DNA from: Tetradesmus obliquus
Lineage: Eukaryota; Chlorophyta; Chlorophyceae; Sphaeropleales; Scenedesmaceae
Length of the DNA stretch: 64,000 nt
Assembly (NCBI GenBank): GCA_030272155.1
Contig: CP126196.1
Location: 992,001-1,056,000 of the forward strand
Reading direction: 5' to 3'
Shown: positions 1,084-62,642 of the stretch, one piece after another
How positions within the stretch are numbered: the first letter of the stretch is position 1
Layout of the letters: each line of letters begins with the position of its first letter
Translations under genes and position numbers: made by a program
Notes under the pieces: generated by a model
Databases searched by the model: none
Seen by the model: the letters and a program-made list of their open reading frames with translations, nothing else
What the model was told of the DNA's origin: nothing

Positions 1084-4000
1084 GCGCGCCAGGCGCTGGG
1101 CCTTGGCTCCGATGTTTTCGTTGCCAGCAGTCTTGATGCGCACGAGGCCACCCTGCGTGAGCTGGCCGACTTTGCTGCGCCGCTCAGGGCCATTGAAAAG
1201 GCCACAGGGCAGTTCAACCAGGACACTGCAGGTGTGTTATGCACACTTTGAATGCACCGCTAAGCGAGACTGCTTGGGCTGTGACAGCGTCAAAGCATGC
1301 AAGCCAAGCTGCCTGTGCCTGCTTGGCACACCGGCTGCCCGCCACCTTTGTACACCTGTTGTTCACACGCGCTGCTGCACGGTGGCTCGATGCATGCTGC
1401 CAACCTCAACTCCTCCGCTGCTGCCGTGTTGCAGAGTTCCTGCAAGCCACCACCATCCTCATGTCTGCACCAGCTACCCAGCACTTGTGTAAATTGGCTG
1501 CCTACTTGCGCTGCTGCTAACCTTTCTGCACTTCCTGCAGACATCCTGCAAGCGACAGCTACCCTGATGGCCTTCTGCCCCTTCCGTGGGCCTTGTCGGC
1601 TGTATTGCCACTTTGCTCACCCTGCATCCGCATGCAATCCTTCTGACAACAACTTCCCGCTGCTGCCCGGTTGCAGAGTTCCTGCAAGCCACAGCACCTG
1701 CCCCTTCCCCCGCATGTGGTTCCAGCTCTCCTCCACAGAAGCCGCAGTGCCGGTGCACGTGCCTGAGTTTGCAGTGCTGTGCAAAGTAGCTGCCCCGCAG
1801 ACGCTTTCGTAACGCACACATCTACTCTGTCTGCTGGTCCTGCTGCAACCCTCCTGTACCTGCGTTGCCGCAACTCCACCCACCCCTTTGCACTTCCTGC
1901 AGAGTTCCTGCAAGCCACCGCCACCCTGATGGCCTCCTGCCCCTTCCCCCGCATGTGGTGCCAGCCCTCCCCCACAGAGCCTGCTGTTCCAGTGCATATG
2001 CCTGACTCTGCAGTGCTCAACAGATTAGCTGCCCCTCGGACGCTTTCTGAATGTATGCCTTGCATCTGGTTGCTGGTCCTTTTACAACCCGCCTGTTCCA
2101 ACCACTGAGCACCCTCGTTGCAGCAAACTCCGCCCACCTGTTTGCACTTCCTGCAGATTTCCTGCAAGCCACAGTCACTCTGATGGCCTCCTGCCCCTTC
2201 CATGGGTCTTGTCTGCTGTATCGCCATTTTACTCACTCTGCATCCGCATGCAATCCTCCAGACCACAACTTCCCGCTGCTGCCGTGTTGCAGAGTTCCTG
2301 CAAGTCACAGCAATTGCCCCTTCCCCCGCATGTAGTCCCAGCCCTCCCCCACAGAAGCCGCAGTGCCGCTGCATGTGCCTGACTTTGCAGCGCTCTGCAG
2401 GGTACCTGCCCCTCATACACTATTCAAACGCACACTTCTGGTCTGTTTGCTGCTCCTGCAACCCGCCTGTCTTCACCTGGTGGTTGCCTGCGCTGCTGCA
2501 CAACACTCCGCCCACCCTTTTGCATTATTGCAGAGTTCCTGCAAGCCACTGCCACCCTGATGGAATGCTGCCCCTTCCCCCGGCTGTGGTCCCAGCCCTC
2601 CCCCACAGAAGCTGCAGTGCCTGTGCATGTGCTTTCGCCAGCTGATGCAGCTGCATGGCTGGATGCCGACACGCATGCGCTGCTGTCAAAGGAGGTGCCA
2701 GGTGCTGTGGGCATGGCGGTCAGGAGCAAGCTGCTGTCTCCCATGCGGCAGTGGCTGGCAGCATATGATGTGGCTCAGGTGCGTGCTATAATATATTGTC
2801 GTGCCTTCCGTGGCTAGGTTAGTTGAGTATGCAAGGTTTGCGGTAACACGGTGTTAGGCAGGGGATGTTGGGTATGGCTGTGTGCTTGCAGCCGCATGGA
2901 TGCCGACACGCATGAGCTGCTGTCAGTAGAGGTGCCAGGCGCTGTGGGCATGGCGATAAGGAGCAAGCTGCTGTCGCCCATGAGGCAGTGGCTGGCTGCA
3001 TATGATGTTGCACAGGTGGGTCATGCTGTTTGATAGTCAATCTACACATGGTGAGAGATGCCAGGGTCCTTTTAGACTGTCACTTTGGTCAGTTTTTATA
3101 CCTTGGAAGCAGGTCAGTATGAGCTGGGTACTTGGAGCAGCATAGGAGGCTGTTACAATTTGTGTCATTTTCTGTTTGTAACACTATTTGAAATCCTGCA
3201 GGCACAGCTGGCTTCCGTGCAGTCTGGACGGCTGGCCTACGATGCCACCAGGAGGCACCTCGTCAGCGCAGCAGCAAAAGCAGCCAAGGACGCTGCCGCA
3301 ACACCACCCGCATCACCTAGAGCAGCACTTGCAGCAAATGTTGCGGCAAGCACAGCAGCACCAGCTGCTGCTGTTGCTGGGCCTGATGAAAAGGGCAGTG
3401 CCAGGCCGCCTGATGTGCTGCTGGTGTCTGGGGGACAGCAGCTGGCACAACTGCAGGAGGTGGCGGCAGCAACCAGCCGTGAGTTGCACAGCTGATCTGG
3501 GACTAACAGTTGCTGTGCAGCTTTTGCTGACTGTTTACATTGTTGACTGGGTCGTGCTGACTGCACACTTTGCTGCACCAAGCCGTCTGAACGTGCAGCA
3601 GCTTGTGATAGTGTGCCCTGCCAGCTGCTTTGTGCTTGGCTGCTTGCAATTCGGCCACTCGCCGCGTGTGGCACAGTACATCACAGCTGGCTGTTGCGCA
3701 TTTGCACGTCTGTGCACTGACATCCTGCCTGCTCACACATGCATCACCTAAATCGCAGCTGAGCTGGCTGAGTATGAGGCCAAGGTAGAGGCCCTTGATG
3801 ACACATTGGCCTGGCTTGACGCTTCACTGACTTGTATTGCCTGTCTTCCTGGCTGCCTGCTGGCCGAGTATGAAGCCAAACTTCCTTCTCTAATTTACGC
3901 GCGGAAGAGCACAGGCTCAAGCAGGCTCGCCTGCTTCTGATTCCTACGCATAGGACTTGTAACTTGTTGACCCAAACTTGAGGCGCTTGACGGCACAATT

Positions 4001-14230: not shown

Positions 14231-17200
14231 ATGCCAGCTGATGCAGCAGCCAGTCGCAGCATGATACCACGGACTAAGATCCCTGGAATGCGTGGCAGGC
14301 GCAGCATTGTGCCTCTGCCTATACTGCTTGCGGCAGTGATGGCGCTGCCAATGGTGCTGTTCCTCTTGAAGCAGCGTGTTCCTGCAAAACAGCCACCAGC
14401 ACCAGCACCATTCCTGCTGGATAAACTAAGGGAGCAGGGTCTTTTAACTGACAGCCATCTTCTTGGTGAGCTTCACCAGCAATCACAAGGCCCCATGCCA
14501 CGTTGCATAGTCCCATGTTCCTGCAAGCAGCTACAGAATGAGTGCCGGCATGGTGTATGAGCTGATAGCTGTAAGCTATACTATGCTCACCGTCCATTCT
14601 TGCAATCGGTCTTGTGCAGGTCATGCAAGCAGATCCACCAGCCAGCAGCAAGCAGCGCAAACAACAGCACCCGCCCCTGCACCTGGCGCCCTGTGGCCCA
14701 GCACACAGCAGATTGCAGCAGCAGCGCAGTACTTTAAAGAGGAAGTGGCAGGCGCCAAGCAGCGGCCTGCAGTTCCTGCGAAGAAGTATGTCATTCCCCC
14801 TGAGCCCTTTGACATGCGCCGCCAACATAAGCAGGTGCGCAGCAGCGACCTGACTTGCAGTGTTGTACAGGCAGTGTGCCTTTGCTTTGCATGGGTGGGG
14901 CAAGCAGCTGTGCTGCCCCTACAGCAAGGCTGGCACAGATGTTGACAGAGAGGTTGCACTTTGCCTGTAAGCACCCGAGCGAAGCGTTTGGATGACGATG
15001 TTCGCGACTAGCATGCTGACAAACAAACGTTTACGGAACGATTGGGCCGACTACCCTGGTTGCCACATCACCAGAGCTGCCTCGTGGTTTGGATGTTTCC
15101 TGCAAGCACAGGTGTCAGCCTACCTGGCATCACCAGAATTCAAAGCCAAGGTGGCAGCCAGGAAGGCAAGGGGCCAGCGAGGCATCATCATCAATGCAGG
15201 GGGACCCAACCTCATCAGCAGCACCATTGTGACACTCAAGGTATTATACCTGCTGCGCTGCTGCAGCTGCGGCAGCAGCAACTGCGTATGCTGCTGCAAT
15301 TTATGGCTTGCTGATGCAGCCAGAATTCACGCATCCTCCTTTGCATGTATGTAGCTCGGCCTATCTATCCTAGAATCCTGTGCGAACGATATGTTCTGGA
15401 GCTTGTTACATTTTTGTTTGAATTGTGTTACTTTTCCAGGTGCTGCGGGAGGTGCTCAACTGCAGCCTGCCAGTGGAGCTGGTGTGGCATGCAACAGAGG
15501 AGATGGACAACGCTACAATTGCAGCGCTGAGGAGGCGCTGGGGCCCAATTTTGGGGATAAACCTCGACAGTATGCCCTGGCCATCCCACCACAGGGCCAA
15601 GGAGGTGGTGCAGTGAGTGCACAGCATCATGCATGAATGGCAGCTGCTGGATTTGGCAGACAGGCGCAAGGCTGACATGCCGCATGCAGAAGTTGCGGCA
15701 AACTTGCGTAAGGAGAACATGGTTCTCTGCGTTGAGCTGCGTCTGGAGCCTTTTAATGATTCGGGTGTGTTCAGCTGCCTTGCCATGGCTGTGCTGCTTT
15801 AACTGCTCCCTGCGGCATGATACCTGTGCTGTTTGCTCCTGCAGGCAGCCGAATTGGAATCAAGGCTTCTTTGGCAAGGTGATGAGCCTGACTGCCTCCT
15901 CCTTTGCGTCTGCGCTGCTGCTGGATGCAGACAGCATGCCGCTGGCAAACCCTGAAGGTGAGGACGAACCTCAGGGTGCATGGCACGGCCAGTACTGTCT
16001 TTGTAGCATTAGGCCTGTCATGCGCTGCCAGAAGTAGCCTTTGCGTCTGCGCTGCTGCTGGATGCTGACAGCATGCCGCTGGCAAACCCCACAGGTGCGG
16101 GTGAACTTGAGGGTGCATGGCAGGGCTAGTACTGTCACTGATAGCGCTGGGGCTGTAAGGTGCTGTCAGAACTGGTCTTTTGCGTCTGCGCTGGATGCAG
16201 ACAGCATGCCGCTGGCAAAGCCGGAAGGTGAGTGCTAGCCTTTGAAGTGCATGACTCTGCCAGTGCTACTTAGTTGCTGATAGGACTGGGAAACGGCCTT
16301 TTGAGGGGAGACACCATGGAAGCAAAGGCATGGCGCTTGCAGTGCACCACGATGTGTAAGACGGGCACACCAGAGCCTCATGCAGAAGCTGTATGCGTTA
16401 CAGTTGTGCAGCCAGCCCATGAGCAAGAGCACCCCGCTGCAACAAGCAGTATGCCATGCATGTTGTGTGTGCAACAGCGCCTTTCAGGAGGATGACTGCT
16501 GAGACTGGTTGTAGACAGAACAAGCGGCTCTTCCTGTTGCTATGCGGCAGACTGTTGCAAACTATCCCTGACGAGGCCGCGTCATCCTGACACTGCAGGG
16601 CTGTTGGATGACGCATCATTCGAAACCACCGGCAACCTGTTCTTTCCTGACTTCTGGTCAACCCCCGCCAACAGCCAGCAGCGAAGCCTGGCATACGACA
16701 TGGTGGGGCTGGAGCATGATGAGGCCCAGGTGCGAGCTGTATATATATTTCAACTGTTACTTTGCTAGCAACGTGTCCTTGGTAGGCATGTCCAGCCGCA
16801 GCGCGGTGTATGACATGGTGGGGCTGGAGCACGATGAGGCACAGGTGCGAGCTGTGTAGATGTTACCTTGCCTGGCCACGTTGATATGGTGGCAAAGTTG
16901 ATCCATTGCGTGGCATATGACATGGTGGGGCTGGAGCCCCAGAAGGCACAGGTGCGTGCTGTATATGTTACTTTGCTGTCCATGCGGCTGCGGTAGCCAT
17001 GAGGCGCAGGTGCGTGGATTCGAGTGAGCTGAATATGTACCTGTAACATGAGCCAGGCCTTGACTGAGTAGCCACGGTGGGACTATGCATGCGCAGGCAC
17101 AGGGGGAAGTCATAGTGCACATGAGCCAGTGTCATTTATGGTGGTCATGTCGCCACAACAGCAAGGAGCAGCACACAGCAGATGGGCACTGATACATCAG

Positions 17201-27387: not shown

Positions 27388-29471
27388 GCTCGAGGCAGCC
27401 ATTGCAGCTGCGCACCTGGGCATGACCACGTTGCTGCCAAGATTGCACTCACCAAAATACAGATTTGTATACATAACAAATGATTGCAGGTGCAGGCAAT
27501 ATCATGCAAAACATCCCCACCTGCTCATGCCCACGTTGGTTGCGTACAGCGTCCTGTGCTGCGTGCGCACCAGCCCTAGCGCCACAGGGCTCTTGAAGAT
27601 CTGCACTGCCTGCATGTGTTAACAAGTGTGCAGCACACACAGCTGTAAGCGCAGCGCAGGTCACACAGCAGACAGATTAAGGAGGTATGTGCCGGTGTCA
27701 TTGAGAACGACCAGAGTCAACCAAAGGAACAACAATGGTCATTCAAGGCATCCAGCATGGTAACTGGCAGCAACATTGCAAGCAGCTCGCGCGTGCCCAG
27801 AGGTCCAGGTTACTCAACATAGGCCCTACATTACAGGCTGCAGCCACAACGAAACTGAACAAAAAATGTTCTCAAGTCAACTGCAGCCGTGCAACGGCAA
27901 CCTGGTCCACCCACGTTATTGTACTACCTGCTCCATTCCCCTTTCTGAAACGGATCAGATACGAGTCCAACACTATGGCTTAGATATCCGTGCAATGCCA
28001 CCCACCTTGTCATACTTCCTGTTCCAAGGCATGCGCACGTCTTTGAAGGTGGCATCAATGTGCAGCAGGTACAGCTTGTATGTAGAAAAGCACATCGTGT
28101 CGTCCCTGCCCCAGAAGTGCCCGGTGAACAGCCCTGCTGTAGGGCTTAGGGTTTGCTTGAACTTCACGGGGCCCATCATGGCAGGCTTGCCGGCTCGCAC
28201 TGAAGGCCGGTAGCACACCTGGCGGCAGTGGAACAAAAAATGGATGGGTTGACACCGCATGCTGAAGCATAATGCAGTGCAGCAGCAACAGCAGCATGCC
28301 AGCCAAGCTTCATGCATGTTGGGTTGTTGTTCCCAAAAAAAAACGCGAGCGGGGTTCTGTGTTCTGTTGAACTTGACAGGGCCCATCATGGCGGGGTTGC
28401 CGGCTCGCAGCGAGGGCCGGTAGCACACCTGGCGGGGGTGGAAACAAGGAAAAACGGATGCGTCAATACTGTATGCTGTACTGTGAAGCATAATGCACTG
28501 CAGCAGTAACAGCAGCATGCCAGCCAAGGCACGTGCATAATTGTTATAAGATGAGCAAGCAGCGTCTGTTTGAACTTGACAGGTCCCATCAAGGCGGGCT
28601 TACCGGCTCTCAGCGAGGGCCGGTAGCATACCTGGCGGCAGTGAACGGCAACAACCATTATGCAGCAAACTGAGCTGCAACCAAAGAACATGGATCTGAC
28701 AGCGTTTGGTGCAATGCAGTGACAGGTGCATGTCAGCCGAGCTGCTTGCAAATCCGTTTGCATATGAGCAAGCAGAATCTGTTAGAACTTGACAGGGCCC
28801 ATCATGGCCGGCTCGCAACGAGGGCCGGTAGCACACCTGGCGGGGGTGAACGGCAACAAACTAAGCTGTGGGCATAACAACAAAAGAGGCTGCGGCTGTG
28901 TTGTGTGAGGCGCCATCAGCCCATTTTCTCTTGGTCATCCCGCTCACACTGTGCTCAAACACTTCTCTTGCACATCCCACTCAAACTGTGTTCCAATTGA
29001 GGCCAACAGAGCTACAAACCGCACCTCCAGTTCCACCGTGCCCATGTCTTTCTTGTTGCGCGGGTGCTGCAGCTTCAGCGGCACCATCAGCCGGCCCCAG
29101 CTGGCGTCACCAGCCAGCCCGCCAGCAACAGCAGCAGGCAGCAGCTGCGGCAGCATCGACAAGTTTGACCGAGGTTTGACCACGGTTGACTCACGTTTGA
29201 CTCGAGTGTGCCAGGCACGGGTTTAGGTTTTTTGCAGGGCATGCGTATCAGGCGTGCAAGACGCAGCCTGCAGCTCTGAGCCGCCAAATTGAAGCAGTGA
29301 CGAGGACAAGCGAGCTACATGTAATGCAAATGCACCTGACACAGACACAGACACAGATCCAATTAACATACATGCGCAGGGACTGCTGCACCTCACCTCC
29401 CTTGGCGCGAAGGCCCAGCTGGCCCGTCCTATCATGTCATCCTCAGTGACGACATCCTTGTCCCACACCTG

Positions 29472-31950: not shown

Positions 31951-32841
31951 ATGATAGGTCACCGTAGCACAAATTTGTTGAGAGGATGCTGCAAGCCATT
32001 CGGCTCCTCCCTTCCTTGTGGCAGGCTGGAGCTCAGCAGCAGGCGCTACAGCAGCAGCAGCAGTGGCAGTAGCAGCAGCATGCACGGCAGGCAGCAGAGG
32101 CATGCAGCCTCACAGGCTCAGCAGCAGCTAGGTTTCAGTCGGTTGTTACGTGAGTATCGCCTATTTGTTTTACTTGCAATGTGTGTACATGCATGCTGCA
32201 GCGTGCGAGCGGAGCATATCCATGCAGCAGCAGACACTGCAGCCTCACAACCGCCAAAACCGCTGATGAAGTTGCACTTGAAAGGCACATTGCACCACCT
32301 GTCTGCAGCTTGCATTAATTCTGTTATGAGGCCAGCAACCAGCTGCTGCTACTGTAGGCACATGTTATGAATTGAGCATGTTGTGTTGTATGCACCTATG
32401 CTGGGCTCCTCTTCTCGCCACAATGACATAATAAGAATGGCACCACGCAAGCGGCACGTGCAATTGTCGATGGCACGCACTGTGTAGATGCACGTGCACC
32501 TTATGCTCGTGTACACCATCACCAGGCAACCTCCTGAGTGCTCCTGAATGACTTGGTCATGCTGCAGCGGATCTGCAGCTGTGCAGCGCTTGAAGGCATA
32601 CAGTGGTCTGTTGTGCTTGCTGGCAACCATGTTTGCTCGAATCAACTTGCATGATTGACTAGCAGCAAGTGAATCAGCTGCACGGATGCATGGTTGCTGA
32701 TATTTGTGTTCACACAAGTTGTTATCATTGAAATCCGCAGGGCATCGGCCGGCCGCCATGGACTATGGGGAAGCATATGAGAACCTATTTAGGTCAAAGG
32801 TGTTTCAGAGCGAGATGGTGGTCAAGGAGTTTGACAGGTGG

Positions 32842-32880
<39 letters not shown>

Positions 32881-33181
32881 TGCGGGCGGCGGCAGCTGCA
32901 ACTGCATGCGCACATAGCTGCTGGCGATGTTGAAGTATGACGATGACCGAAAGGGTTACAGAGATTGGAGCAACGGCGAAGCCAAGGTTGACAGAATAGC
33001 ATTCATCTGTTTCTTCGCGGTCTTATAGTGAGCAGCAGCAGCAGCTGATAGAGGAGGTACATACAGTGCAAGCGCTTGACATGGATTCTGTGCAGCACAA
33101 TGCAGCCGACCTCAGCCAGAGGAACATGCGGGCATAATCTCCACAATGCACGAGCACACAGCAGACTGGTCACCAGACAAG

Positions 33182-33215
<34 letters not shown>

Positions 33216-35841
33216 GCGTGCAGCATCATGACTGAGCTGCGGCGGCTGTCCATGATGGCGGCACGCTTCCCCGACTTTGACCTGGCCGGCAAGGAGATGT
33301 TCCTGGACAAGGTGACACGGCGATGAAATTTTTGTGTTGCCTTGTCTTGTTGTGTCTTTTTAATTAGGGGTCTGTGTATGCATGCGTGGTCTGGGAGGAC
33401 AGGGCTGCTTGGCGGCTGTTTGTTCTCGTCCAGCAGCAGTGTATGGATGCACGGCATCGGTGCAGATGCCTCTGCACAAGGTGAAACGGTGTGGCTCATG
33501 ATCTACAGTTGGTGCAGAGCACTGGCAAATTGGTAATCACGCTTGCTGCATGTACCTTGCCTTCTTCTTCCAACGCATACCCTTTTCGTCTTGCCGTGCT
33601 GCTGTGTGCAGATGGAAGAAGGCACAGAGCGTTACAAGGTGCGACCCCAACACACACGCTATCCCAGTGGGCTGTCGCTACCAGACGTGGTCGCCTGCCT
33701 GCGTGCATGCAACCTCGTGCCACCACTCAGTTGAATCAGTCTGCCGTGCTGTTCATGCATGCTGCAGCATAGTGCATGTTGTCGCACGGCCAGCGATGGT
33801 CCCAGCAAGCTGCATCATGACGAGCATCTAATGCCAGCCATTACACCAAGGCAGCCATCCACAGCAGGTGACGCCTGCATGCAGCTGCCATCCATCCAGC
33901 AGCTGCTGCTGCCTGATCGCAGATGCTGCTGCTGCTGCCGCTGCTGCTGCTCCTGTCCCCGCCGCCGCCGCCGCCGCCACTGCTGCTGCCACTCTTACTG
34001 CTGCTACCGCTATCACCGCAGCTCTTCATGAAGCGGTTGGAGCTGTGTGACGATGCAGCAGCCAAGGAGTACCTGCGCTACACGAATGCGCAGATGCTGG
34101 AGGGAGGCTTCACGCTGCAGGCCATGTTCGAGGGGTGAGTGAAGTCTAGAATTTGAACAAAACAGATTGTGGGTGCTTAGCCACTGCTGCTGCTGGTTGC
34201 GGCGGCTTTGTTTGGGGCAGTGGGTTGATGAGAAGGTGGCTACTGCGGGGGTTGATGCTGCACGCTGTGTCTGCAGCTGCAAAAGAAACGACGGCGCAGA
34301 TGATGGCCAGAGGGAGGCTGCAGGCCATGTTCAAGGGGTGAGCGGCGCTGCTGCTGCTGCTGCTGGTGCCTTGTAGCTCATCCTACTAATTGTGGTGATT
34401 GCTGGCATGCTGTTTTCTGTCGGTTTGATGATCGTCCTGGCTGTGCTGTCATGTCATGCTGCAGGCTCACGCAGAGTCTTGGGCAGTACCGCAGCTGGCT
34501 GGAGGAGGAGCGGCGAGTCAGCGCAGACCCTGTCAAGCACCAAGCTTTTTTGGCGGTGAGTGGTCGTGTATGTTACTTTTATAAATGTCACAACATGTTC
34601 ATGATGTGGTAACACAGCACAAGCAGCTGGCTGGAGGAGGAGCGGCGAGTCAGCGCAGACCCTGTCAAGCACCAGGCCTTCCTGGCGGTGAGTTGTTGTG
34701 TATGTTACTTTTATGATGTCACTTTTCAAATGTCACAACATGTTCATGATGTGGTAACACAGCGCAAGCAGCTGGCTGGAGGAGGAGCGGCGAGTGAGCG
34801 CAGACGCGGTGAAACACCAGGCCTTCCTGGCGGGGAGCTGTCAGTTCCTCTCACTTGTTTCAAACCTGTTTGTAACACGGCACATGCAGCTGGCTGGAGG
34901 AGGAGCGGCGAGTGAGCGCGGACCCCGTCAAGCACCAGGCCTTCCTGGCGGTGAGTGAGAGTGTTATGCTGTCATGTCCGTGACATCTTGTAACATGCTT
35001 GGGACATGGCACATGTTGCTTGTTGTAGCAGAGCAGACGGCTGAGACAGCTTATGCCCAGTCAACCTCCGCATCAGGTTTCCATCGCAGTGAGAGGCGCT
35101 TGCGCAAGCTGCCGCAGGGCTTCCGGTAAGCCTGGCGCAGCAGTGCCCGCGTGGCAAAGGCACGTGTGCTAGTCAGCGGCAGCTCAAACACCTCACTGCT
35201 GCTGCCCTGCTGCTGCTGCCGCAGGGCTTCAGGCAGGCCTGGAGCAACAGCACCATGGACGCCAGTAGCTTGCTACTAGATGCTGCAATTCAACAGCCAT
35301 TTTAATGTTTTATTGCTGCTGCTGCTGCTGCTGCAGGGCTTCAGGCAGGCCTGGAGCAACAGCGCCATGGGCGCCATTGACATGTCGGTTCTAGCGCAGA
35401 TGGCTGACCCAGCCATGGTGGTGGCTGCACAGAAGGACCCCGAGGTGAGGCGGGGCGCGTACAGCACCAATGCTGTTACTACTGTTGTTAGCAACAGTCA
35501 GTTTGTGTTCTGATGTTGGTTGGGTTGGCAGACCCAGCCATGGTGGTGGCTGCACAGAAGGACCCCGAGGTGAGGCGGGGCGTGCACAGTACTGCTGCTG
35601 TTACTGCTGTTGTCAATAACAACCATTGATCTAGTTGGTGTTATGTGCGATGGCTGACCCAGCCTTGGTGGCGGCGGGACAGAAGGACCCCGAGGTGAGC
35701 CACGGCGTGCACAGTGCTACCGTCAATACTACTGTTGTTAGTGACTGCGTAACTGCGCAACTGAATAACAGTAACAAGCATCATCAGACCTGGTCAGACC
35801 TGGTGTGGCAAGCATGCCTTGCGATGTGGGCACTACACATC

Positions 35842-35875
<34 letters not shown>

Positions 35876-36021
35876 TGCAGTTCTACAAGTGCATTAGGGA
35901 GATCAGTGACAACCCAACTTCAGAGACGATGTCAAAGTGGCTGGATCATCCCACCATCGGGCCCCTTGTGGGTGCCATGTGGAAGAGTATGCAGATTGCC
36001 AGGAGCAGGGGCCAGCAGTAG
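31951..36021 (+). CDS. Plastid DUF1825-domain protein (cyanobacterial type) with C-terminal extension
   Basis: Eight exons keep frame: 31951-32149, 32741-32837, 33224-33311, 33612-33638, 34022-34134, 34465-34555, 35337-35444 and 35881-36021 (TAG). They give 287 residues. Residues 1-66 are basic and Ser-rich, as in a chloroplast transit peptide. Residues of about 73-175 match the cyanobacterial DUF1825 family: FRSKVFQSEMV, ELRRLSMMAARFPDFDLAGK, FLDKMEEGTERYKLFMKRLE, then MLEGGFTLQAMF. The order and spacing agree with that family. Residues 176-287 are an added domain (LTQSLGQYRSWLEEERRV and onward) not present in cyanobacteria as far as I recall. Function is unknown; a stromal or thylakoid role is inferred from descent. 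Exon 4 is a 27-nt microexon. Junction copies crowd introns 5 to 7. Confidence 0.75.
34290..34960 (+). repeat. Junction copies after DUF1825 exons 5 and 6
   Basis: A degraded copy of exon 5's end lies at about 34290-34338 (QAMFKG then GGTGAGC). The end of exon 6 (SWLEEERRVSADPVKHQAFLA plus GTGAG donor) recurs at about 34621-34687, 34765-34830 and 34889-34950, spaced 125-145 bp. Copies are over 90 per cent alike by eye. All lie downstream of the exon that has an acceptor (34465). Confidence 0.85.
35090..35700 (+). repeat. Copies of both ends of DUF1825 exon 7, flanking the intact exon
   Basis: Exon 7 (35337-35444) has copies of its start upstream (about 35105-35140 and 35222-35262, CAGGGCTTCAGGCAGGCCTG type). 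Copies of its end lie downstream (about 35528-35573 and 35649-35695, ending CAGAAGGACCCCGAG then GTGAG). Upstream copies carry the acceptor and downstream copies carry the donor. Confidence 0.85.
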
Positions 36022-36535: not shown

Positions 36536-39500
36536 ATGCAGCTCCTGAACAAGAAGTGCAATGGCGCCCCTGTGGCTGCCCGTGCTGGTCGCACACAGCG
36601 TGTCAGCTCCAGGGTGGTGCGCGTGCAGGCAGCAGCAGCCGCGGAGACCGCTACCAAGCTGAAGACCACACGCTCCGATGAGGTGCGGCCTGACACGCAG
36701 CAGCAAGCAGCTATGGCCAATTGATCGCCACATTGCGTTAGAAAGATGTTGAATTGATAGAACACTGCTGAGACGTCGTCTGAGCCGCAGCAGCGAGAGT
36801 GCTACAGGTTGCTGGTTCTGTACAGTTGCAGCAGCAGCACATGCATGTGGTGGGCTGGGATATTTCATGCAGACACAACGTCCCAGACAGCACAGAACAC
36901 GCAGCGAGCACTATATACTGCCAGAAACGTGGTGTTAGATGCTTTAATCAGGTTGATATTGACCGTGCATACTGCGCATATGTTGCGATGCAATGGAATT
37001 GTTGTCCTGCGATCACCGCATGCTGCTGGTGACAGGGCCAGCAGCTACCTAGCAGCAGTGTTCTGTTTCTTCAAGCAGCATCAGCTTCCCTGAGCTTTCA
37101 TGCTAGCTTGCACCACTTGCATCTTGCACCACACTCTTCTGCGTCCTTGCATGCGCCTGCACTCATATGGATGTGCATTTGAGCACAACAATCCCCACCT
37201 GGTCACGAACCTGGCACATGCGCTGCTGGAACGTTATTTTGCAATCAATCTCGTCTGTCCTGCTGCACATGCAGATCATGGCAGAGGCCAAGGAGCTGCT
37301 GCCGGGTGGCGTGAACAGCCCCGTGCGCGCCTTCCGCAGCGTTGGCGGCAACCCCATCGTATTTGACCGCGTGAAGGGGCCCTACTGCTGGGACGTGGAC
37401 GGCAACAAGTGAGCCGCCGATGTTGTTGGGCATAAGCGGTGCTGAGTTGTGCGTCTTGCAGCTGCATGCTGTGTTGCTGGGTATGTTTGAACGTGTGAAG
37501 GGCCCGTACTGCTGGGACGTGGACGGCAACAAGTAAGGCTTCGATTGCGCTGCTCACGATGATGTGGTTGGTGATGCAGTGGGCTGCATGCTGTGTTTAG
37601 TGTTGACCGCGCTGCCTGGCTGGATGCTGATGTGCACCGCTGGAGCATTGCTCTGCAGCCGCTGCTTAGTTGGTACAGTCACAAACGCGCAGCACGCAGC
37701 CACCTTCACATCCCTTGCGCGTCAAAGTACGTCACAGTGCGTGTGGTTTGCACCATCACTCACGGCTTTTTGCGGGTTGTGCTGCCTGGTGTCACTTTGA
37801 AGGTATGTGGACTACATCGGCAGCTGGGGCCCCGCCATTGTTGGTGCAGCCAACGATGAGGTCAACGAGGCACTCAAGGCGCAGCTGGAGAAGGGCACCA
37901 GCTTCGGAGCACCCTCAGCACTGGAGGTGAGGGCATCACTCAGGCTTTCTTGGATGTTTGTGGTCCATGCGGTACATGTTGCTTGCATGCGCAGCAGTGG
38001 CAATGGTACATGTTGCTTGCATGCGCAGCAGTGGCAGCAGGTGTATGTTTGTTTGCTTTGCATGCTCTTAATGGTTCCAACTTGCCCTGCACCAGCGTGC
38101 TCCGACAATTAGTCAGCCACAGCTCAACCGCACTTCTGTCACCATCAATACCCTTCTCCATAACCTGCTGGCCAAGAAAGTGATCAACCACGTGCCAGGC
38201 GTGGAGATGGCGCGCTTAAAATGCAAACCCTGCGCTGCAGTTCATTTAACCCTCGCCCTGCCACCTCGAAAACCCTTGCAGAACGTGCTGGCCAAGAAAG
38301 TCATCGAGCGCGTGCCAAGCGTGGAGATGGTGCGCTCTGTGCAAACCGTTTTTTGCAGTTTTTTAAACCCTCATTATGTCATCTTTTAAACCCTCATGCA
38401 GAACGTGCTGGCCAAGAAGGTGATTGAGCGCGTGCCAAGCGTGGAGATGGTGCGCTTCGTCAGCAGCGGCACTGAGGCATGCCTCAGCGTGCTGCGCCTG
38501 ATGCGCGCCTACACAAAGCGCGAGAAGGTCATCAAGTTTGTGGGCTGCTACCACGGCCACGCAGACAGCTTCCTGGTCAAGGCTGGATCCGGCGTCGCCA
38601 CCCTGGGCCTGCCCGACTCGCCAGGTGTGTTTGACCAAGATTTGACTGGGTTTGACTGGTTTGATCTGGTCAGAGTGGGGTGCTGCCACGGCCACGCAGA
38701 CAGCTTCCTGGTCAAGGCCGGCTCTGGTGTCGTCACCTTGGGCCTGCCCGACTCACCAAGTGTGTTTGAACAAGTTTGACCAGGGTTGACCATGTCCCGG
38801 CTGCTTGACTTGCAGCTGCTGATGATGATGCATTGGTTTGGAGAGCACAGCAACTCGCATTCTCAACTGCTGCTTTTGCTGCTGTTGTAGACCTTCCCTA
38901 TACCCGCCTCCACGCCGCTGTCATGCTGACTGCCACCTACAAAGATCTGGACAGCCAGACCACCCCTAACTGCTGTTGCTGCTGCTGCATGTACAGGTGT
39001 GCCCGCCTCCACCGCTGCTGCCACCCTGAACGCCACCTACAACGACATTGAGAGCGTGAAGGCGCTGTTTGCTGCCAACAAGGGGGAGATCGCTGGTGTC
39101 ATCCTGGAGCCAGTTGTGGGCAACAGCGGCTTCATCGTGCCCACCAAGGAGTTCCTGCAGGTCGGTCAAACATTGACTTTGACCGGTCAAACTGTTACAC
39201 TTGACCAGTCGAATACGTGGGCGAGGCTTCACCAAGTGGCATGCAGAACGGTAATGCAGCATCACTTGCACCGCGCTGCGATCACGCACCCCAATGCAGT
39301 GCTGCATGTTGTGCTGCTGACTGCGATGCTGTGCTCCGCTGCTGCTGCCGCTGCTGCTTGCTGTCTTGCTGCAGGGCCTGCGCGACATCTGCACAGCTGA
39401 GGGTGCCGTGCTGTGCTTTGATGAGGTCATGACTGGCTTCCGCATTGCACGCGGCTGCGCCCAGGTGGGCAGCAGTGATGTGCATGCAGCAGCAGCCAGC

Positions 39501-41700
39501 TGGGCAGCAGTGATGTGCATGCAGCAGCAGTGATATGCATGCAGCAGCAGCCAGTGCTTCGCGATATTGAGGGGTGGGATGTTGAGGGTGTGGCCAGGCT
39601 GCAAAGGACTGGTCCCAGCAGCAGCAGCGGCGGCGGCGGCAGCCTCCAAGCACAAGGTCGCAGCCAGCACGGCGATCAGGGGCTGGCTGCTTGGGGCACT
39701 TTTTGCAACAGCTGGGACAGCTGGGGTGCAGCAGTAGCGGTCGACGTCTAAGCACCGCCTATGTTAATCTCGTTGGCAGCATGTGCAGTCCACAGCAGCA
39801 ACCATTCTATGCGCCAACCATACAGCTTGCAGTACACCCATTTTACAGCGCTTGCACATGACATCCACATTTTTCCCCTGCCACTCAACGCTTGCACCAT
39901 CTTTGACCGTGTTTGACCAAATGTTTGACCGCGTATTTGATCAAACGTTTGACCACCGCCTGCAGGAGTACTTTGGCATCACCCCTGATGTGACCACCAT
40001 GGGCAAGGTCATTGGTGGCGGCCTGCCGGTGGGCGCGTATGGCGGCAAGCGTGAGATCATGGAGATGGTGGCACCAGCCGGCCCCATGTACCAGGCAGGC
40101 GAGTGATAACATGTTTTGTGCTTTTGGTTATGGTTTGAAGCAATGTTCTGGCTGAGTTGCGAAGTACGGCGGCAAGCGTGAGATCATGGAGATGGTGGCA
40201 CCAGCTGGCCCCATGTACCAGGCAGGCAAGTCTTTAGGGATTGTGCTGTTGTTTAGGGTTTCAAGCATTTGTAGGGCACATACGGCAGCAAGGGCACATA
40301 CGGCGGCAAGCGCGAGATCATGGAGATGGTGGCGCCAGCTGGCCCCATGTACCAGGCAGGCAAGTAATGAGGTTTTAATGCTGTTTGTGCTGTCCATGGT
40401 AACCACTTTGGCCGACCTGCTGAGGCAAGCGTGAGATCATGGAGATGGTGGCGCCAGCTGGCCCCATGTACCAGGCAGGCAAGTGATAAACGGGTTCGCT
40501 GTTGCTGAAGATCTTTAGTCACTGATTGGCTGAAGCATGGCAGCAAGCACGAGATCATGGAGATGGTGGCGCCAGCTGGCCCCATGTACCAGGCAGGCGA
40601 GTGATAAACGGGTTTGCTGTTGCTGAAGATCTTTAGTCACTGTTTGGCTGAAGCATGGCAGCAAGCACGAGATCATGGAGATGGTGGCGCCAGCTGGCCC
40701 CATGTACCAGGCAGGCAAGTTTTTAATGATTGTGCTGTTGTTTAGGGTTTCAAGCAATCTGCATGGCTGGGTGTAGATGGGTCCTGTAGGCAGGTGCGAG
40801 ATCATGGAGGTGGTGACGCCATGTACCAGGCAGGCAAGCTTGAAGGGAATGTCGTGTTGTTTAGGGTTTGGTATCAGCCTGACGGCTGAATGATGAATTG
40901 TGGAGGCAAGCGCGAGATCCGCTGGGATCATTACTCGGCGGATCCACAGGCTGGCGTGACTGCTTGGCTGCTTAGCTGACTGTAATGTTGTCGTCACTTC
41001 ACTTCCCTGCAGGCACACTGTCCGGCAACCCTCTGGCCATGACCGCCGGCATCAAGACGCTGGAGATCCTGGACAGGCCGGGCAGCTACGAGCACCTGGA
41101 CCGCATCACCAGCAGGCTGGTGGATGGCATCATGGCAGCGGCAAAGGAGGCAGGCCACGCCATCACCGGCGGCCACATCAGCGGTGAGCCTCTTCTGTGT
41201 GGCATGTCTTTGCTGCGTATGGACTGCTTCCGTTGTGCTTCGAGCTGTTGCTATGGCTGCGCTGTGCGTACATGTTTGACTACAGCATTCACCTCGCTTG
41301 TGTTCTAGTGGTGTTTGGCCAAAGAAACAAACCCCCTGCTGCATCCCCGCAGGCATGTTGGGCTTCTTTTTCCGCTGAAGGCCCCATCAACAACTACGAG
41401 CAGGCAACCTAAAACCCCTTTACTCCCCTTTTACACTCTCATGACTCCTGTTTCTTCTGCACGTGTATTCTTGCAGGCATGTTTGGCTTCTTCTTCTGCG
41501 AGGGCCCCATCAACAACTACGAGCAGGCCAGCGAGAAGGCCGACACAGCAAAGTTTGCGCGCTTCCACAGGGCCATGCTGGAGGAGGGCGTGTACCTGGC
41601 ACCCTCCCAGTTTGAGGCAGGCTTCACAGGCCTGGCACACACAGAGGAGGACATCGACTTCACAATCGCAGCAGCCAAGCGCGCATTCGCACGCATCTGA
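36536..41700 (+). CDS. GSA: Glutamate-1-semialdehyde 2,1-aminomutase, chloroplast
   Basis: Nine exons keep frame: 36536-36682, 37275-37408, 37803-37926, 38402-38624, 38997-39160, 39375-39464, 39966-40098, 41013-41183 and 41477-41700 (TGA). They give 469 residues, close to the algal norm. It converts glutamate-1-semialdehyde to 5-aminolevulinate in the stroma, the last step of the C5 route to chlorophyll and heme. Residues 1 to about 38 form a transit peptide ([14 protein letters not shown]). Family blocks follow: [84 protein letters not shown], then [16 protein letters not shown] with the PLP lysine (about Lys308), and [10 protein letters not shown]. The exon 7 donor appears to be GC (GCAG|GCGAGT). 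Six exons have junction copies. Confidence 0.97.
37486..37535 (+). repeat. Downstream copy of GSA exon 2 end
   Basis: The [16 protein letters not shown] end of exon 2 recurs 125 bases later, with Glu for Asp at its second residue, followed by GTAAGG. It has no acceptor of its own. Confidence 0.85.
38155..38768 (+). repeat. Upstream and downstream copies of GSA exon 4 ends
   Basis: Copies of the exon start ([18 protein letters not shown]) lie at about 38160-38215 and 38282-38337, before the intact exon at 38402. The nearer one keeps the TTGCAG acceptor. A copy of the exon end ([20 protein letters not shown]) lies at about 38683-38760, after the exon closes at 38624, with a GTGTG donor. Period is about 120 bp. 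Confidence 0.85.
38888..38960 (+). repeat. Upstream decayed copy of GSA exon 5 start
   Basis: CCCGCCTCCACGCCGCTGTC to ACTGCCACCTACAA is a degraded version of the exon start at 38997 ([17 protein letters not shown]). It is preceded by TGTAG. Confidence 0.7.
40036..40920 (+). repeat. Eight-copy array of the GSA exon 7 end with GC-type donors
   Basis: The segment encoding [20 protein letters not shown] is coding at the end of exon 7. It recurs with GAGATC starting at 40180, 40314, 40433, 40551, 40669 and 40798 and as a stub at 40914. Spacing is 116-134 bp. The junction reads CAGGCAG then GCAAGT or GCGAGT in copies 1-6. Copies 5 and 6 are nearly identical, and copies 7 and 8 are decayed. All lie inside the intron between exons 7 and 8. 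Confidence 0.9.
41348..41412 (+). repeat. Upstream copy of GSA exon 9 start
   Basis: After a CGCAG acceptor this repeats GCATGTTTGGCTTCTTCTTC with changes. A one-base difference shifts the frame before GGCCCCATCAACAACTACGA, so it cannot replace the intact exon at 41477. Confidence 0.85.
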
Positions 41701-51033: not shown

Positions 51034-52624
51034 ATGTCAGCTGCAGCCAGCTCGAGTGCTGTGCTGCTGGTGCTGCTGGGGGTGATCTGCCTTGCCACAC
51101 GAGCCGGGGGTCATGGCATCCTAACAGAGCCCAAGGCAAGGAACTTTCTGGCCTGGACACAGTACAACCACTACTGGCCTGATGGGGCCAGTGCAGGAGG
51201 TGCGGGCAATTTGGTCAAAGTGCGAGCACTGTCTAAGTTAGACAGAGTCTGGGTGTGAAAGGCTGCATAATCATTTTCGATGAATGCCAGCACCATAATC
51301 AACAGCAGCAGAAAGCGAAGCAGAGCGACAGCAGTTCAGCAACAGAACATTGCATATTCCGTCCATACACAAGTATTAACATCACCTGTTCGACTAGTTG
51401 AACACTGCAGTACTGTGCATGGGCACTGCCCCAAGAGGTTGCAGGGCATGGCACAGCTGACTTGTCAGTGAGCCCTCACTGTAACGGCTGTTTCTTACCA
51501 CCATCACTCTCCGGTGTAGCTTAGACTTATGACAGCTGCTGTGCAGCTGCAGAGAAGGTCCAGATCTGCTGCAATGACAGCTTGATGCGCTTGTTGCCTG
51601 CAGGTTACAAGGTGGTTGGAGCCAACGGCGCAGTGAAGTGGCCATACGGCAAGCACAGCATTTGCGGCGATGATGCAAACAAGAGTGACCAGCCATTCAT
51701 GAAGCCAGGACCCATCGTTGGTGAGGATCTGCTGTGTGGTGCAGCAGCAGCAGTGACAGCAGCAGCAGCGACAGCAGCAGGACGAGGCAGCTGCTTCATT
51801 GCTGGGGCATCAAGACCATGCGCAGCCTCTGTTGCTGCAATCGCCAGTGAGCGCGCGGCCTGTGCTCCCGGCTTGGTCTTTGCCTGCCGGCTCCACAACT
51901 CATGTATACGCCACTTGCATCCTTTGACGCTGCACATGTTACTACCTGTGACGCTGCAACTTGAACCCACCTGTCTGCCTGCTTGGCTGCCTACCTGCCT
52001 GCCTACCTGCCTGCCTGGTTTATCTCTGCCTTGTTTGTCTGCCCACCCCCAGCCACCTACAAGGAGGGCCAGACCCTGGAGCTGCTGGTGCTGCTGACCA
52101 CCAACCACAACTTGCATAAGACACAATTGTCATCTTCTATTGCTGCACTTGTAACTTGCATTCCTGCCTGCCTGGACCTTGCCTGTCCGCAGCCACCTAT
52201 AAGGAGGGCCAGACGGTGGGGTTGGGTCTTGTTTGTTATTGTCTTATGCCTGCCGGCCTGCCTGCCTGCCTGGACATTGCTTGCCTGCAGCCACCTACAA
52301 GGAGGGCCAGACGCTTGAGCTGCAGGTGCTGCTGACCACCAACCACTACGGCCGCTTCGAGTTCAGGCTGTGCCCAGCAGACGCCACAAAGGACAGCCAG
52401 TGCAGGAAGCTGCAGCGGTGAGGGGCCAGCAGCAGTCTAGAAGGTGGCAGCAGCAGCAGCAGAAGCAGCGTGCTGAGAGCCTGATGCTGCATTGCAAGCA
52501 TGCAGCAGCAGCAGCCATCTGGTGAGCATTCACATGCCAGCACCAGCAGCATGGACAATTCAGCAACTGCCATCTGTCTTGATTGATCATACAGAGCATG
52601 ATGTGTTTGCTGATTTGCTGCTGC

Positions 52625-52669
<45 letters not shown>

Positions 52670-52951
52670 AGCGCTGATGGCAAGGGTGTGGCGTGGGACC
52701 TGCCCAAGGTGGCTCAGGGCAGCCGCTTCAACGGCGGCGCGCTTGGAGAGAACCTGCGGCCCATGGAGGTGGACAACTTCTACAGCTGGTGAGGGCAATG
52801 TTATGTTACATGTTGTTATGTGACATGTTATTCATTTGTGCAAGTGGGTAGTATTGAGGGAAAAGTTTGGGCAAGAACTTGCGGCCCATGGAGGTGGACA
52901 ACTTCTACAGCTGAAGAGTTTGTGGCTGGTCATTTGTGCGCTGCACTCAGA

Positions 52952-52987
<36 letters not shown>

Positions 52988-54714
52988 GCTGCTGCTGCCG
53001 CCCCACAGGCACCCCATGCAGCAGCCGCAGTGTGCCAGCCACGCGCACTGCAGCAGGTTCAACGGAATGCCCGTGTACAAGCTGCGCTACAAGCTGCCTC
53101 AGGGCTTCAAGTGCGAGCGCTGCATACTGCAGTGGTGAGCGAGTTTTGGCAACCTGGCACAATCAGTGACTTTTTGAAACAAGGCGAGAATGCACGCCAC
53201 AATCATCAGGCATCAGCACATATAGTCCTCTGGCGCACCTGCACAGCTGCTTCCAGCTTCTGCTGATGGCTATCGCTTCCTGCTGTGGGCCTTGCCCTTT
53301 CTACACCCCTGCACCCCACAAAGGTCACAGTCTCAATCATGCAACCAGCAATACACACAGTGGAAACATCCGGCCTCTAAACATACTGCGTTGATTGCTT
53401 GCAGGTACTACCTGACCGGCCACAAGTGCCACCCGCCCTGCCTGCAAAGTGACCGCTACTACCCGGACTGCCGCTCCAACCCCAAGTTCAGGGGCACCTA
53501 CCTAGCTCAGATGGACTACTGCGGCACGGAGTGGAGCGCGTACCCCGAGGAGTTCTGGAACTGCGCGTGAGTGAAAAAGGACAAATGAATATGGCTTTTG
53601 CCTGTTAGATTGAGGGCATGTGCACTCCTGACAGTTTTTCAGGCAAGGGTTTTGGGCAGGGTTTCTGGCATGTCTTGGGACAGGTTGCTCCAACCCCAAG
53701 TTCAGGGGCACCTACTTCGCTCAGATGGACTACTGCGGCACAGAGTGGAGCGCATACCCCGAGGAGTTCTGGAACTGCGCGTGAGTGAAAAAGGAGAAAT
53801 AAATATGGCTTTTGCCTGTTAGATTGAGGGCATGTGCGCTCCTGACAGTTTTTCGGGCAAGGGTTTTGGGCAGGGTTCTTGGCATTTTTTGTGGGACATG
53901 TTGCTGCAGGGGCACCTACCTGGCTCAGATGGACTACTGCGGCACGTAGTGGAGCGCCTACCCAGAGGAGTTCTGGAACTGCGCGTGAGTGAAAAAGGAC
54001 ATAATTATGCGGCTCCTGCGTGTGCTTTGAGGGGGTGTGCGCTCCGACAGTTTTGAAGCAAGGGTTTTGGGCAAGGTTGCTGGCATGTTTTGGGACAGGT
54101 TGCTCCAACCCCAAGTTCAGGGGCACCTACCTGTAACTAGCTGAAAATGGACCACTGTGGAACAGAGTGGAGCGCCTACCCCGAGGAGTTTTGGAACTGC
54201 GCGCGAGTGGTGTTGGGCGGGGTTTGGGGCAGTGGATGGCCAGGGCTTTGGACCGGATTGTGGTTTCTTTGTAGGACAGGGTGCGGCAGACGGGGGCTGG
54301 GCTTGAAAGTGACGGGAGGTCAGCTACTGCACAGCCTCAGGACTCGACATGCATGCATGTTGCATCCAGTGTGCCTTGACAGAGCGATTAATTTGAGCTC
54401 TTGTGTGCGAGCAGCACACATTGCAGTGAAATGCAGCCAATAGATTGCAAGACGTGCACCACCGATCGTATACGACGGCGATCTCATATGTCCCGTCAAT
54501 GTTTACATGTGAGATGTTTGCTGCTCTTGGCAGGCTAAGGTTGAGACTGAGCAGTGCGCATCACGGAAATGACCTGAACCTCACCGCCGTCATCTCCGCT
54601 GCTGCTGCTGCTGCTGCTGCACTTGCAGTGACATCAAGATTCAGTAGGCTTCAACAAGTGAGCCGTTGGAGCAGCGGCAGCTGCTGCAGCTGCTGGCAGG
54701 TCTTACACCAATGA
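51034..54714 (+). CDS. Secreted LPMO-like protein (AA15 / chitin-binding type-4 domain)
   Basis: Seven exons keep frame: 51034-51199, 51604-51720, 52291-52417, 52672-52788, 53009-53134, 53405-53566 and 54534-54714. They give 331 residues. A signal peptide (VLLVLLGVICLATRAGG) ends exactly before HGILTEPKARNFLW-type sequence, leaving His27 as the mature N-terminus, the first half of the copper histidine brace. The second His is H113 in LLTTNHYGRFEFRLC, matching the NHxGxFEFRLC pattern of AA15 LPMOs. Many paired Cys, then YYPDCRSNPKFRGTYLAQ and AYPEEFWNCA complete the domain. The family cleaves chitin or cellulose oxidatively outside the cell. Exon 7 adds a short Leu/Ala-rich tail and is less certain than the rest. 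Confidence 0.85.
52045..52290 (+). repeat. Two upstream copies of the TYKEGQT exon start in the LPMO-like gene
   Basis: Copies after CCCAG near 52051 and after CGCAG near 52192 repeat CCACCTAYAAGGAGGGCCAG before the intact exon at 52291. The first keeps about 60 bases, the second about 25. The intron sequence between them (TGCCTGCCTGCC runs) is also duplicated. Confidence 0.85.
52866..52915 (+). repeat. Downstream copy of the LPMO exon 4 end
   Basis: GGGCAAGAACTTGCGGCCCA to TTCTACAGCTG copies the end of exon 4 (NLRPMEVDNFYSW), 80 bases after its donor. Confidence 0.85.
53470..54205 (+). repeat. Four-copy array of the LPMO exon 6 end
   Basis: The segment encoding SNPKFRGTYLAQMDYCGTEW to EEFWNCA is coding at 53476-53566. 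It recurs at about 53690-53780, 53910-53986 and 54110-54204. Copies 2 and 3 keep the GCGC|GTGAGTG junction. Copy 3 has TAG in place of the Glu codon before TGG, and copy 4 has a frameshift plus a stop. Period is about 210-225 bp. Confidence 0.9.
54369..54498. repeat. Dispersed repeat, copy 2
   Basis: Matches 42835-42966 in the same orientation. It lies inside the last intron of the LPMO-like gene, ending 35 bases before the acceptor, so it may supply part of the 3' splice region. Confidence 0.8.
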
Positions 54715-57875: not shown

Positions 57876-57908
<33 letters not shown>

Positions 57909-58253: not shown

Positions 58254-58301
<48 letters not shown>

Positions 58302-58415: not shown

Positions 58416-58448
<33 letters not shown>

Positions 58449-58570
58449 CTTGACGTCAGGCGGTGCCTGCGCTTGCGCTGCTGCAGCAAAGCGGTGCGCT
58501 GCTGCGTGCATCAAGTCAGCATCGTAGTAGCGCAGCCTTGCGAGGCACACTGCCACCACCATGAGATCCT

Positions 58571-58603
<33 letters not shown>

Positions 58604-60781: not shown

Positions 60782-62642
60782 ATGAGGGCGACCTCAGCCG
60801 TAGTGCTGCTGCTGCTCGGAATTGCTCCGTTTAAAGATGCAAGTAGGTTTCTTTACGGCATCTAGCAGCCACGAGAGCTATCCTTGCCCCTGTGCTGCTG
60901 TGCAGGGCACACGCAATGATGGCACTCACAGCACAGCTGACACAGCCTTCACCTGCAGCTGCACTGACAGCACACAGCACACCTACTGACTTGACATGTA
61001 GCCTCCTGCCACGCTTTTTGATTTGGCGTAGTTCAAACGCTTGATGTCAGCCAAGGCACCAATTCTGTACATGTTGCATCAGCAGCTGCAGGATGGTGAC
61101 GCCAAATCATTTCCTGCAAGTGTTGGCACCCTCTCAGTGGTGCATGCGTGCTGCTCTGCCGCTGACACCTGTCACTGCAACGATGCAGCTACATCCTACC
61201 CACAGCAGCAGCAGCAGCAGCTGCGCCACTTGCTGACAGCTCAGCCCAGCAGCAGCAAGCAATCCTCCCTAACAGTAGCAGGCCCCAACTGCATAGAAGC
61301 CTTCTACAACACAACAGCGCAGCACTACGCCAAGGATGAGTCATGCACATTCCTAATCAACCAGGCCTTTGCAGCCACTGGCCAGAGTGGGTGCCCGCAG
61401 GGAGGCACTGGCAAGGGCTCGCCAACACACCAGTGCATGCAGAAGACAGCGGTGAGTCGCCGCGTTCATTGCTTGCTGTTGTGCAGCTGGATAAATAGGT
61501 AGATAGAGGGGTTACATGGTGTGTTCATGCGGCATAAGCCACCACAGACAGCTGGTAAAATAGGAGGCTGCAAGCAGCTCAGCTCGGACTGTCAGCTGGA
61601 TAAGCAGCCAAAGAGCGGCATGTTTTACTTGTGCTTGCTGTTATGTTGTGCAGCTGCAGAAACATTCAAAGAGCCAAGCTTTGCCTGTGCTTGCTGTTGT
61701 GCACCTGGTTAAGCAGCCAACGCGCCGCTTTGTCAGTTGCTCTGCCTGCACGAGCTGCGGTGCCGCCCTAGGTGACACAAGCCAAGTGGGCGGCGTGCAT
61801 AGAGCATGGCCTTCTTTTCAAACAATCCACAGCAACCGGCTTCATCCTTGGCAGAAGGTTGTTGTTAGTGACAATCCTGCTGTCCACATGGCACGCTGTG
61901 CAGGGTGCCACGGCTGCCTGGGTCGCCTACTTGACACAATGCCCACTGAGCAACGTGCTTACGGTGAGCCGCCTGCTACACACTCGGGCTCTGGCATCTG
62001 TTTGCTGCGGCTGCCTGCTACTGCATGAGCATGTGCATGTACCTTATCAAAGGCTTCCGAAGCTGAGTCAGCTGCTTCCAGGACATGACCAGCCCTAACG
62101 AAAATGAGGCTTACGCCAATAGCAGCACAGCAGCTGAGTAATTTTCATCTTACTGTGACGACGGCTTTGGTGGTGACATGATGATGATAATATGACTGTG
62201 ACGTGTATTGCCGATGCTCTTGCAGGGAGGCAAGGGCTTCAGCTGCTTCCAGGACTTGATTAGCTCGACAATTCCAGGTTTCAACCGTTGCTGATGATGG
62301 ATATAGCTTATATCTCAATTTGCCATCATGATGTTCTGCCAACTGCAGGGAGGCAAGGGCTTCAGCTGCTTCCAAGACATGACCAGCCCACACCAACGAG
62401 AGATTCTGCAAAGAACTGACCCTGCCCTGTTGACGATGCTGCCGCCATGCTTGCAGGGAGGCAAGGGCTTCAGCTGCTTCCAGGATATGACCAGCCCCAG
62501 CGACTTTGAGTCATATGCAAATGGCAGCACAGCAGCAGTGGCGCCTGTCACCCGCAGCAGCGCCGTGCGAGCCGGGCCGGCACTGGAAGCTCTGTGGCTG
62601 TGTGCGGCTGCAGCCGTGCTGGGCGCTGCTTTAATACTGTAA
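60782..62642 (+). CDS. Secreted Cys-rich protein with GPI-like C-terminus, family unknown
   Basis: Exons 60782-60842, 61051-61451, 61904-61963 and 62457-62642 keep frame and give 235 residues. Extra exons between the second and third are possible. The start gives a signal peptide (MRATSAVVLLLLGIAP). Spaced Cys follow: HACCSAADTCHC, CIEAFYNTTAQHYAKDESC, GCPQGG, TQCPLS, FSCFQDM. The end is small residues then a hydrophobic stretch (LEALWLCAAAAVLGAALIL) running to the stop, the layout of a GPI-anchor signal. It is probably a cell-surface protein stabilised by disulfides. I do not recognise the family. TGTAA lies at 62801-62805. Confidence 0.6.
62055..62456 (+). repeat. Three upstream copies of the GGKGFSCFQDM exon start
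   Basis: Copies near 62070 (decayed), 62226 and 62350 repeat GGAGGCAAGGGCTTCAGCTG and the acceptor before the intact exon at 62457. The two later copies keep TTGCAG or CTGCAG. Confidence 0.9.

Follow-up and report, generated by a model that had tools for sequence, protein, structure and literature searches.

Arrays of partial exon copies at splice junctions and their share of intron length in Tetradesmus obliquus

Genes and junction arrays at the locus

The stretch analysed here, called the window throughout, is the whole 64,000-bp segment C6:992001-1056000 of the assembly of the green alga Tetradesmus obliquus (genome of 104.66 Mb in 17 contigs), in which exon-intron junctions are accompanied by arrays of partial exon copies lying within the introns. 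Coordinates are window positions, and features lie on the forward strand unless stated otherwise. Three genes were modelled by spliced alignment to proteins: GSA (glutamate-1-semialdehyde aminomutase; 36536..41697; nine exons; protein P0001, 468/469 residues identical), LPMO_10 (chitin-binding type 4; 51034..54644; seven exons; P0121, 276/277 residues identical; PF03067) and a DUF1825 gene (32741..36018; seven exons; P0135 and P0137; PF08855). Intact exons of the first two match independent T. obliquus proteins (OEZ85_001690, the best protein match of GSA, and OEZ85_001692 for LPMO_10). The DUF1825 model was built from proteins of Scenedesmus sp. NREL 46B-D3 and Raphidocelis subcapitata, and an eighth, 5' exon (32404-32476) that rests on one protein was excluded from all counts. 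Introns in the three models are GT-AG, apart from one GC-AG.

When every exon with a 60-bp flank was searched against the sequence within 2.5 kb, 28 local matches were obtained and 27 were retained, the match of LPMO exon 1 to 48672-48709 being dropped as low complexity and 2.3 kb distant. All 27 copies lay on one predictable side, heads of exons upstream of the intact exon and tails downstream of it, and were spread over 14 of the 40 junctions in the 20 introns. Every copy was partial, with no whole exon and both its splice sites duplicated; in two (GSA exon 5 head and LPMO exon 4 tail) the splice site itself fell outside the match. An earlier note on this DNA had proposed that such arrays exist and follow this order, and they proved real by three routes (self-alignment, Tandem Repeats Finder and the exon-by-exon search), with 27 arrays in the window when ab initio exons were used.

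Six junction arrays surround the intact reading frame of GSA. Intron 2 holds a copy of the exon 2 tail with its 5' splice site (37486..37545; 87% identity over 60 bp). Exon 4 is flanked by two upstream copies of its head with the 3' splice site (38134..38336; 79% and 83%) and one downstream copy of its tail with the 5' splice site (38675..38790; 87% over 117 bp). Upstream of exon 5 lies a head copy whose match starts 5 bp inside the exon (38903..38945; 82% over 44 bp), and six copies of the exon 7 tail with the 5' splice site follow that exon at a spacing of ∼113-134 bp (40164..40838; 72-95%). The upstream copy of the exon 9 head carries the 3' splice site and is without intron homology (41349..41405; 91% over 57 bp). 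Intron 7 (40099-41012) has GC in place of GT at its start; the donor reads GCGAGT at the intact site and GCAAGT in most of the six exon-tail copies, so that several decoys are presumably nearer the GC-donor consensus than the site in use. The segment 39290-39400, covering intron 5 and the start of exon 6, is CTG-rich and has dozens of weak genome-wide matches, some of them to a repeat spaced at 42 bp.

In LPMO_10, two upstream copies of the exon 3 head with the 3' splice site (51994..52215; 77% and 91%) were found together with three downstream copies of the exon 6 tail with the 5' splice site, spaced at ∼214 bp (53687..54209; 85-95%), and one downstream copy of the exon 4 tail that stops exactly at the exon end and is without intron homology (52874..52913; 97.5% over 40 bp). 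The DUF1825 gene has a downstream copy of the tail of exon 34022-34134 (34288..34342; 79% over 58 bp), three downstream copies of the tail of exon 34465-34555 (34623..34957; 86-90%) and a possible downstream copy of exon 2 (33224-33311) that may be due to chance (33464..33489; 81% over 26 bp, E = 0.035). Its exon 35337-35444 is preceded by two head copies with the 3' splice site (35108..35264; 82% and 92%) and followed by two tail copies with the 5' splice site (35526..35741; 89% and 81%). At the intact exon end 34541-34555, four synonymous differences fall within 12 bp while the three copies agree with one another, which looks like a single clustered event in the intact exon. Copies of both kinds around one exon, claimed earlier for three exons, were thus confirmed for GSA exon 4 and DUF1825 exon 35337-35444; the third, exon 28006-28218 of a C2-like gene, showed upstream copies only. 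That array, seen by self-alignment beside an ab initio exon, holds three copies (28148..28859, reverse strand), and the C2 matches of the gene fall below the Pfam cut-off. A further array, in a putative mannosyltransferase gene (PF11051; ab initio model), repeats an exon tail with its 5' splice site at a period of 137 (15911..16232; Tandem Repeats Finder and inspection by eye).

Position of the copies and nature of the duplicated unit

The survey was extended to twenty random 10-kb loci (L003-L022), which together with the window were annotated with a self-trained ab initio gene finder, and to eight held-out random loci (L023-L030), for which the gene finder was frozen. Ab initio exon limits are rough, including tiny exons and some array copies called as exons. 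The window and first sample contained 63 arrays, 36 of which sit in 12 of the 20 random loci; arrays were also present in three of the eight held-out loci, one of the three being doubtful. The phenomenon therefore extends beyond the window, in line with the earlier note. Among head or tail copies in the window and first sample, 109/117 lay on the predicted side (22/22 in the three protein-backed genes, under a stricter filter than the 27-copy search, and 87/95 in ab initio models), with 25 further copies that match an exon middle or both ends left unclassed; both ends were matched by 12/120 ab initio copies. Held-out loci L027-L030 gave 13/13 on the predicted side, plus 15 matches to exon middles; L030, apparently a repeat-rich coding gene, accounts for 12 of these. 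The side rule needs no separate law, because it follows from the geometry of tandem duplication together with selection for an intact exon and reading frame; a genome-wide count of sides would therefore test tandemness.

The orientation and spacing of the copies agree with such an origin. Matches to array exons in the window and first sample were all direct (147 direct, 0 inverted), and the nearest copies were spaced at 88-259 bp, with 110-150 bp in 31 of the 49 junctions tested (spacing up to 260 bp). In the three genes, the intron half of 16/27 copies showed homology to the intron that adjoins the intact exon (z>4, in a test that omits the 10 bp nearest the junction). Among sole copies the same homology was found in 14/30, versus 1-3% for unrelated intron pairs; of the 13 held-out copies 11 were tested, and nine of these showed it. 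In the three genes, inner copies seemed richer in homologous intron halves than the farthest ones, but over all junctions the gap is small (median z 4.5 versus 3.0). The copies are direct tandem duplications, and a contiguous unit of exon plus intron is demonstrated for about half of them; contiguous tandem duplication would be the simplest reading of the remainder. The earlier proposal of tandem duplication across a junction is upheld in its order and orientation, and its contiguous unit is demonstrable to that extent. Taken together, we consider it probable that tandem duplications spanning splice junctions produced the arrays, and that the extra copies are spliced out as intron and so lengthen the introns.

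Several observations weigh against this interpretation. Over all junctions, intron-half homology at z>4 was reached by just 45/101 copies and 21/49 nearest copies, and some copies are >97% identical in their exon part yet lack intron homology (LPMO exon 4; L015 1358-1592). Four inverted matches, their positions not located, occurred in L027-L030. The side rule was broken by 8/95 ab initio copies, two of them in a gene that is LRR-like by eye, and five of the eight held-out loci (L023-L026 and L029) contained no array. Pasting in of exon pieces was considered for pairs with unrelated spacers; as a general route it is opposed by the lack of inverted copies in the first sample and by the homologous intron halves, and it may account for single cases.

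Other repeats were recorded in the same material. Three near-identical 118-bp repeats at L015 6735-7016 (98% matches) appear by eye to span the end of a coding region, stop codon included, and the type of duplication seen at splice junctions may also occur at the ends of coding regions. In the window, three exon-like copies (7667-7784, 8229-8320 and 8617-8734) are 93-98% identical and hundreds of bases apart, with no homology detectable in between; they could belong to a repeat-exon gene kept uniform. A minisatellite occupies 20128-20596 (28 bp, 16.8 copies, 90% matches). At L024 805-10000 (C5:2697441-2707440) a 933-bp unit is repeated in tandem (9.5 copies, 74% matches, GC 50.6%) up to the end of the stretch examined; it is possibly a satellite.

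Intron length and the placement of duplications

The 20 introns of the three genes average 458 bp. If each array is taken to run from its junction as far as the outer limit of its last copy, 43% of that length is array, and the remainder averages 262 bp. Table 1 of PMC5966456, the part of that source used here, gives a mean intron of 462 bp for T. obliquus and of 230, 302, 284 and 270 bp for four other green algae, and the array-free mean is close to the 230-302 bp of these other species. Growth of introns by duplication, as the earlier note had supposed, is supported by these figures, and the three genes suggest that arrays account for the long introns of the lineage.

Whether exon edges are favoured is a separate matter. 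Duplications could arise uniformly, those internal to exons being selected out and junction-spanning and intronic ones remaining, with no preference for exons. Unit and intron sizes are similar, so a model in which 95-170-bp duplications are placed at random in the 20 introns and only frame-safe ones survive by itself gives 47-65% junction-spanning survivors, along with 35-53% purely intronic repeats. Against this expectation, no intron-only array was found in the 20 introns versus 14 junction arrays, and the 14 repeat pairs detectable inside these introns all overlapped exon-copy arrays. The chance of finding no intron-only array is at most 0.0022. Pairs of intron sequences lose similarity faster than pairs of exon copies, which would hide intron-only events; if half of these were undetectable, the chance rises to 0.005-0.047. 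Eleven repeat arrays, chosen as mostly labelled intronic or partly so, were also inspected by eye, and an exon edge was seen in seven, with four unclear. Survivorship by itself is thus an unlikely explanation, and the counts support, without proving, that duplication is anchored on exons and not random within introns. A size law drawn from repeat periods (0 at 46-103 bp and 24 at ≥104 bp in 264 kb) was dropped, since it fails in the held-out loci (seven periods at 46-103 bp and five at 104-220 bp).

Divergence of the copies, mechanism and known systems

Divergence from the intact exon is 2-28% among copies in the three genes, which also differ from one another. The earlier claim that copies are of many ages is upheld. 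An assembler does not invent diverged, mutually different copies, and arrays occur on many contigs, so an assembly artefact is hardly credible. The splice dinucleotide is kept in 86/101 junction copies. Most of the decoy sites that had been postulated are nonetheless weakened, with copy sites scoring below the intact site in 14/19 donors and 8/8 acceptors (scores are from the gene finder's own matrix, which is poor on GC donors, and six of the 19 donors belong to that class). Of 33 residues changed in the copies of the three genes, 27 were unseen in homologues (120 GSA, 8 LPMO and 16 DUF1825 sequences compared; two residues, shared by two copies, were counted twice). Nonsense changes made up 20/416 (4.8%) versus 4.4% expected. 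By these measures the copies look dead.

Two features of the divergence count on the other side, along with the structural points above. Synonymous differences were in excess (527/943, 56%) over the 42% expected from the observed mutation spectrum, and in nearest copies nonsynonymous divergence was 5.0% and intron divergence 23%, the two being uncorrelated. The ratio of nonsynonymous to synonymous differences (pN/pS) between intact exon and copy was 0.25 (bootstrap 0.20-0.31), and 0.14 in the three genes, versus ∼0.43 for dead copies, a value converted from the expected 42% synonymous share; controlling for the mutation spectrum explains part of the low ratio. Raw difference counts share changes within arrays, and unique events (398 synonymous, 368 nonsynonymous) and single-copy arrays (144 versus 157) were nearer neutral. 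The intron-divergence excess in nearest copies, compared within the unit, was about twofold over the dead-copy expectation, while the 11 held-out copies (mean divergence 8% in exon and 17% in intron) fit simple decay better. Exon halves are thus better preserved than expected of dead copies, and the synonymous excess does not suit copies dead from birth. Three processes could each account for some of this preservation, namely conversion limited to exons, an origin in diverged haplotypes, and selection; none explains all of it.

If the copies were functional alternative exon ends under coding selection, the synonymous excess and the retained dinucleotides would be accounted for. Yet most residue changes are unseen in homologues, nonsense changes occur at the neutral share, splice sites are weakened and partial copies cannot replace their source exon, which together make this very improbable. 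The unique-event counts and the kinds of residue change likewise weigh against coding constraint on the copies, which the low pN/pS had suggested. It is rather unlikely that the arrays are old, with exon halves overwritten time and again from the live exon by gene conversion or template switching, or with exon pieces alone copied, while introns drift. Such copying would accommodate the copies with near-identical exon parts and no intron homology, the lack of correlation between exon and intron divergence, and a copy-to-copy divergence of 6.7-11.7% in exons versus 34% in introns in five arrays (a comparison that used forced alignments, which may inflate intron divergence). However, overwriting resets synonymous and nonsynonymous sites alike, whereas a synonymous excess is observed, and the held-out copies fit decay. 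A low pN/pS at birth would be expected if unequal exchange between alleles or hybrid genomes had put into the intron an exon edge that had diverged beforehand, a route that appears quite improbable: the unique-event and single-copy counts are nearer neutral, synonymous differences are few in some of the nearly identical copies, and GSA is single-copy in the assembly, with no donor seen, although a haploid assembly does not hold alleles. A diverged second GSA gene as donor was sought and none was seen, the other matches being a low-complexity intron stretch or proteins 29-39% identical.

Junction-spanning duplication, the reading we prefer, would proceed by a few steps. Short DNA stretches covering an exon edge would be duplicated head to tail; where the extra copy falls outside the intact exon, the reading frame would survive. 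Splicing would keep the exon-proximal sites, namely the 3' site nearest upstream of the intact exon and the 5' site nearest downstream of it, so that the extra edges would become intron and their splice sites weaken, and renewed duplication of the units would lengthen the introns. Duplication may favour DNA in which exon is present, perhaps by way of a break-repair or recombination process dependent on conserved exon sequence. If intact proteins are to result, the spliceosome must take exon-proximal sites despite related sites on the intron side. The protein models, which come from sequence, fit such a choice, and its use in vivo would accord with exon definition, in which sites are paired across the exon; pairing across the exon predicts the exon-proximal choice, and pairing across the shortest intron would not. 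A fuller version, in which an exon-anchored process acting recurrently at the same junctions nearly doubled the introns of the lineage while exon halves were kept similar to the live exon, is a possibility we hold only tentatively.

Long introns are usually attributed to transposons. The arrays would represent a transposon-free route to long introns, several stages of which can be seen within single genes and whose contribution is measurable (∼43% of the length of the introns in three genes). Every array also offers a natural experiment on how splice sites are chosen, with similar sites in competition, each at a known distance from the same exon. Exon edges in this lineage may be misplaced by gene finders, as happened here with the ab initio finder. 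Junction-spanning arrays as a main component of intron length are not known to us from any description, on a literature check that is incomplete; tandem duplication, its role in intron gain and the tandem duplication of exons are already known.

Introners and transposon-driven intron change are known, and the arrays resemble them in that introns of a protist or alga are altered on a large scale, but they form no dispersed family, the two array introns searched in the whole genome matching their own locus alone. Unlike templated insertion by end joining, which would give both orientations, they gave no inverted copy among 147 matches in the first sample. Tandem exon duplication and mutually exclusive exons are also known and likewise place local exon copies in introns, whereas the copies here are partial and look dead. 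Plant work links paired single-strand breaks to small tandem duplications. An origin of small tandem duplications in break repair has been suggested (in the part of PMC8355091 used here), and the units described here are similarly short, direct and tandem; they differ in recurring at exon edges and in forming multi-copy intronic arrays, which are known here from sequence alone. Another related system is the gain of introns through tandem genomic duplication, of which the potato RdRp gene is an instance (as given in the part of PMC4974935 used here); there, too, the extra sequence is spliced out and the protein unchanged. In T. obliquus, by contrast, none of the introns is shown to have been gained: the units, where homology is visible, hold pre-existing intron, the copies lie inside larger introns, and introns that already existed grow.

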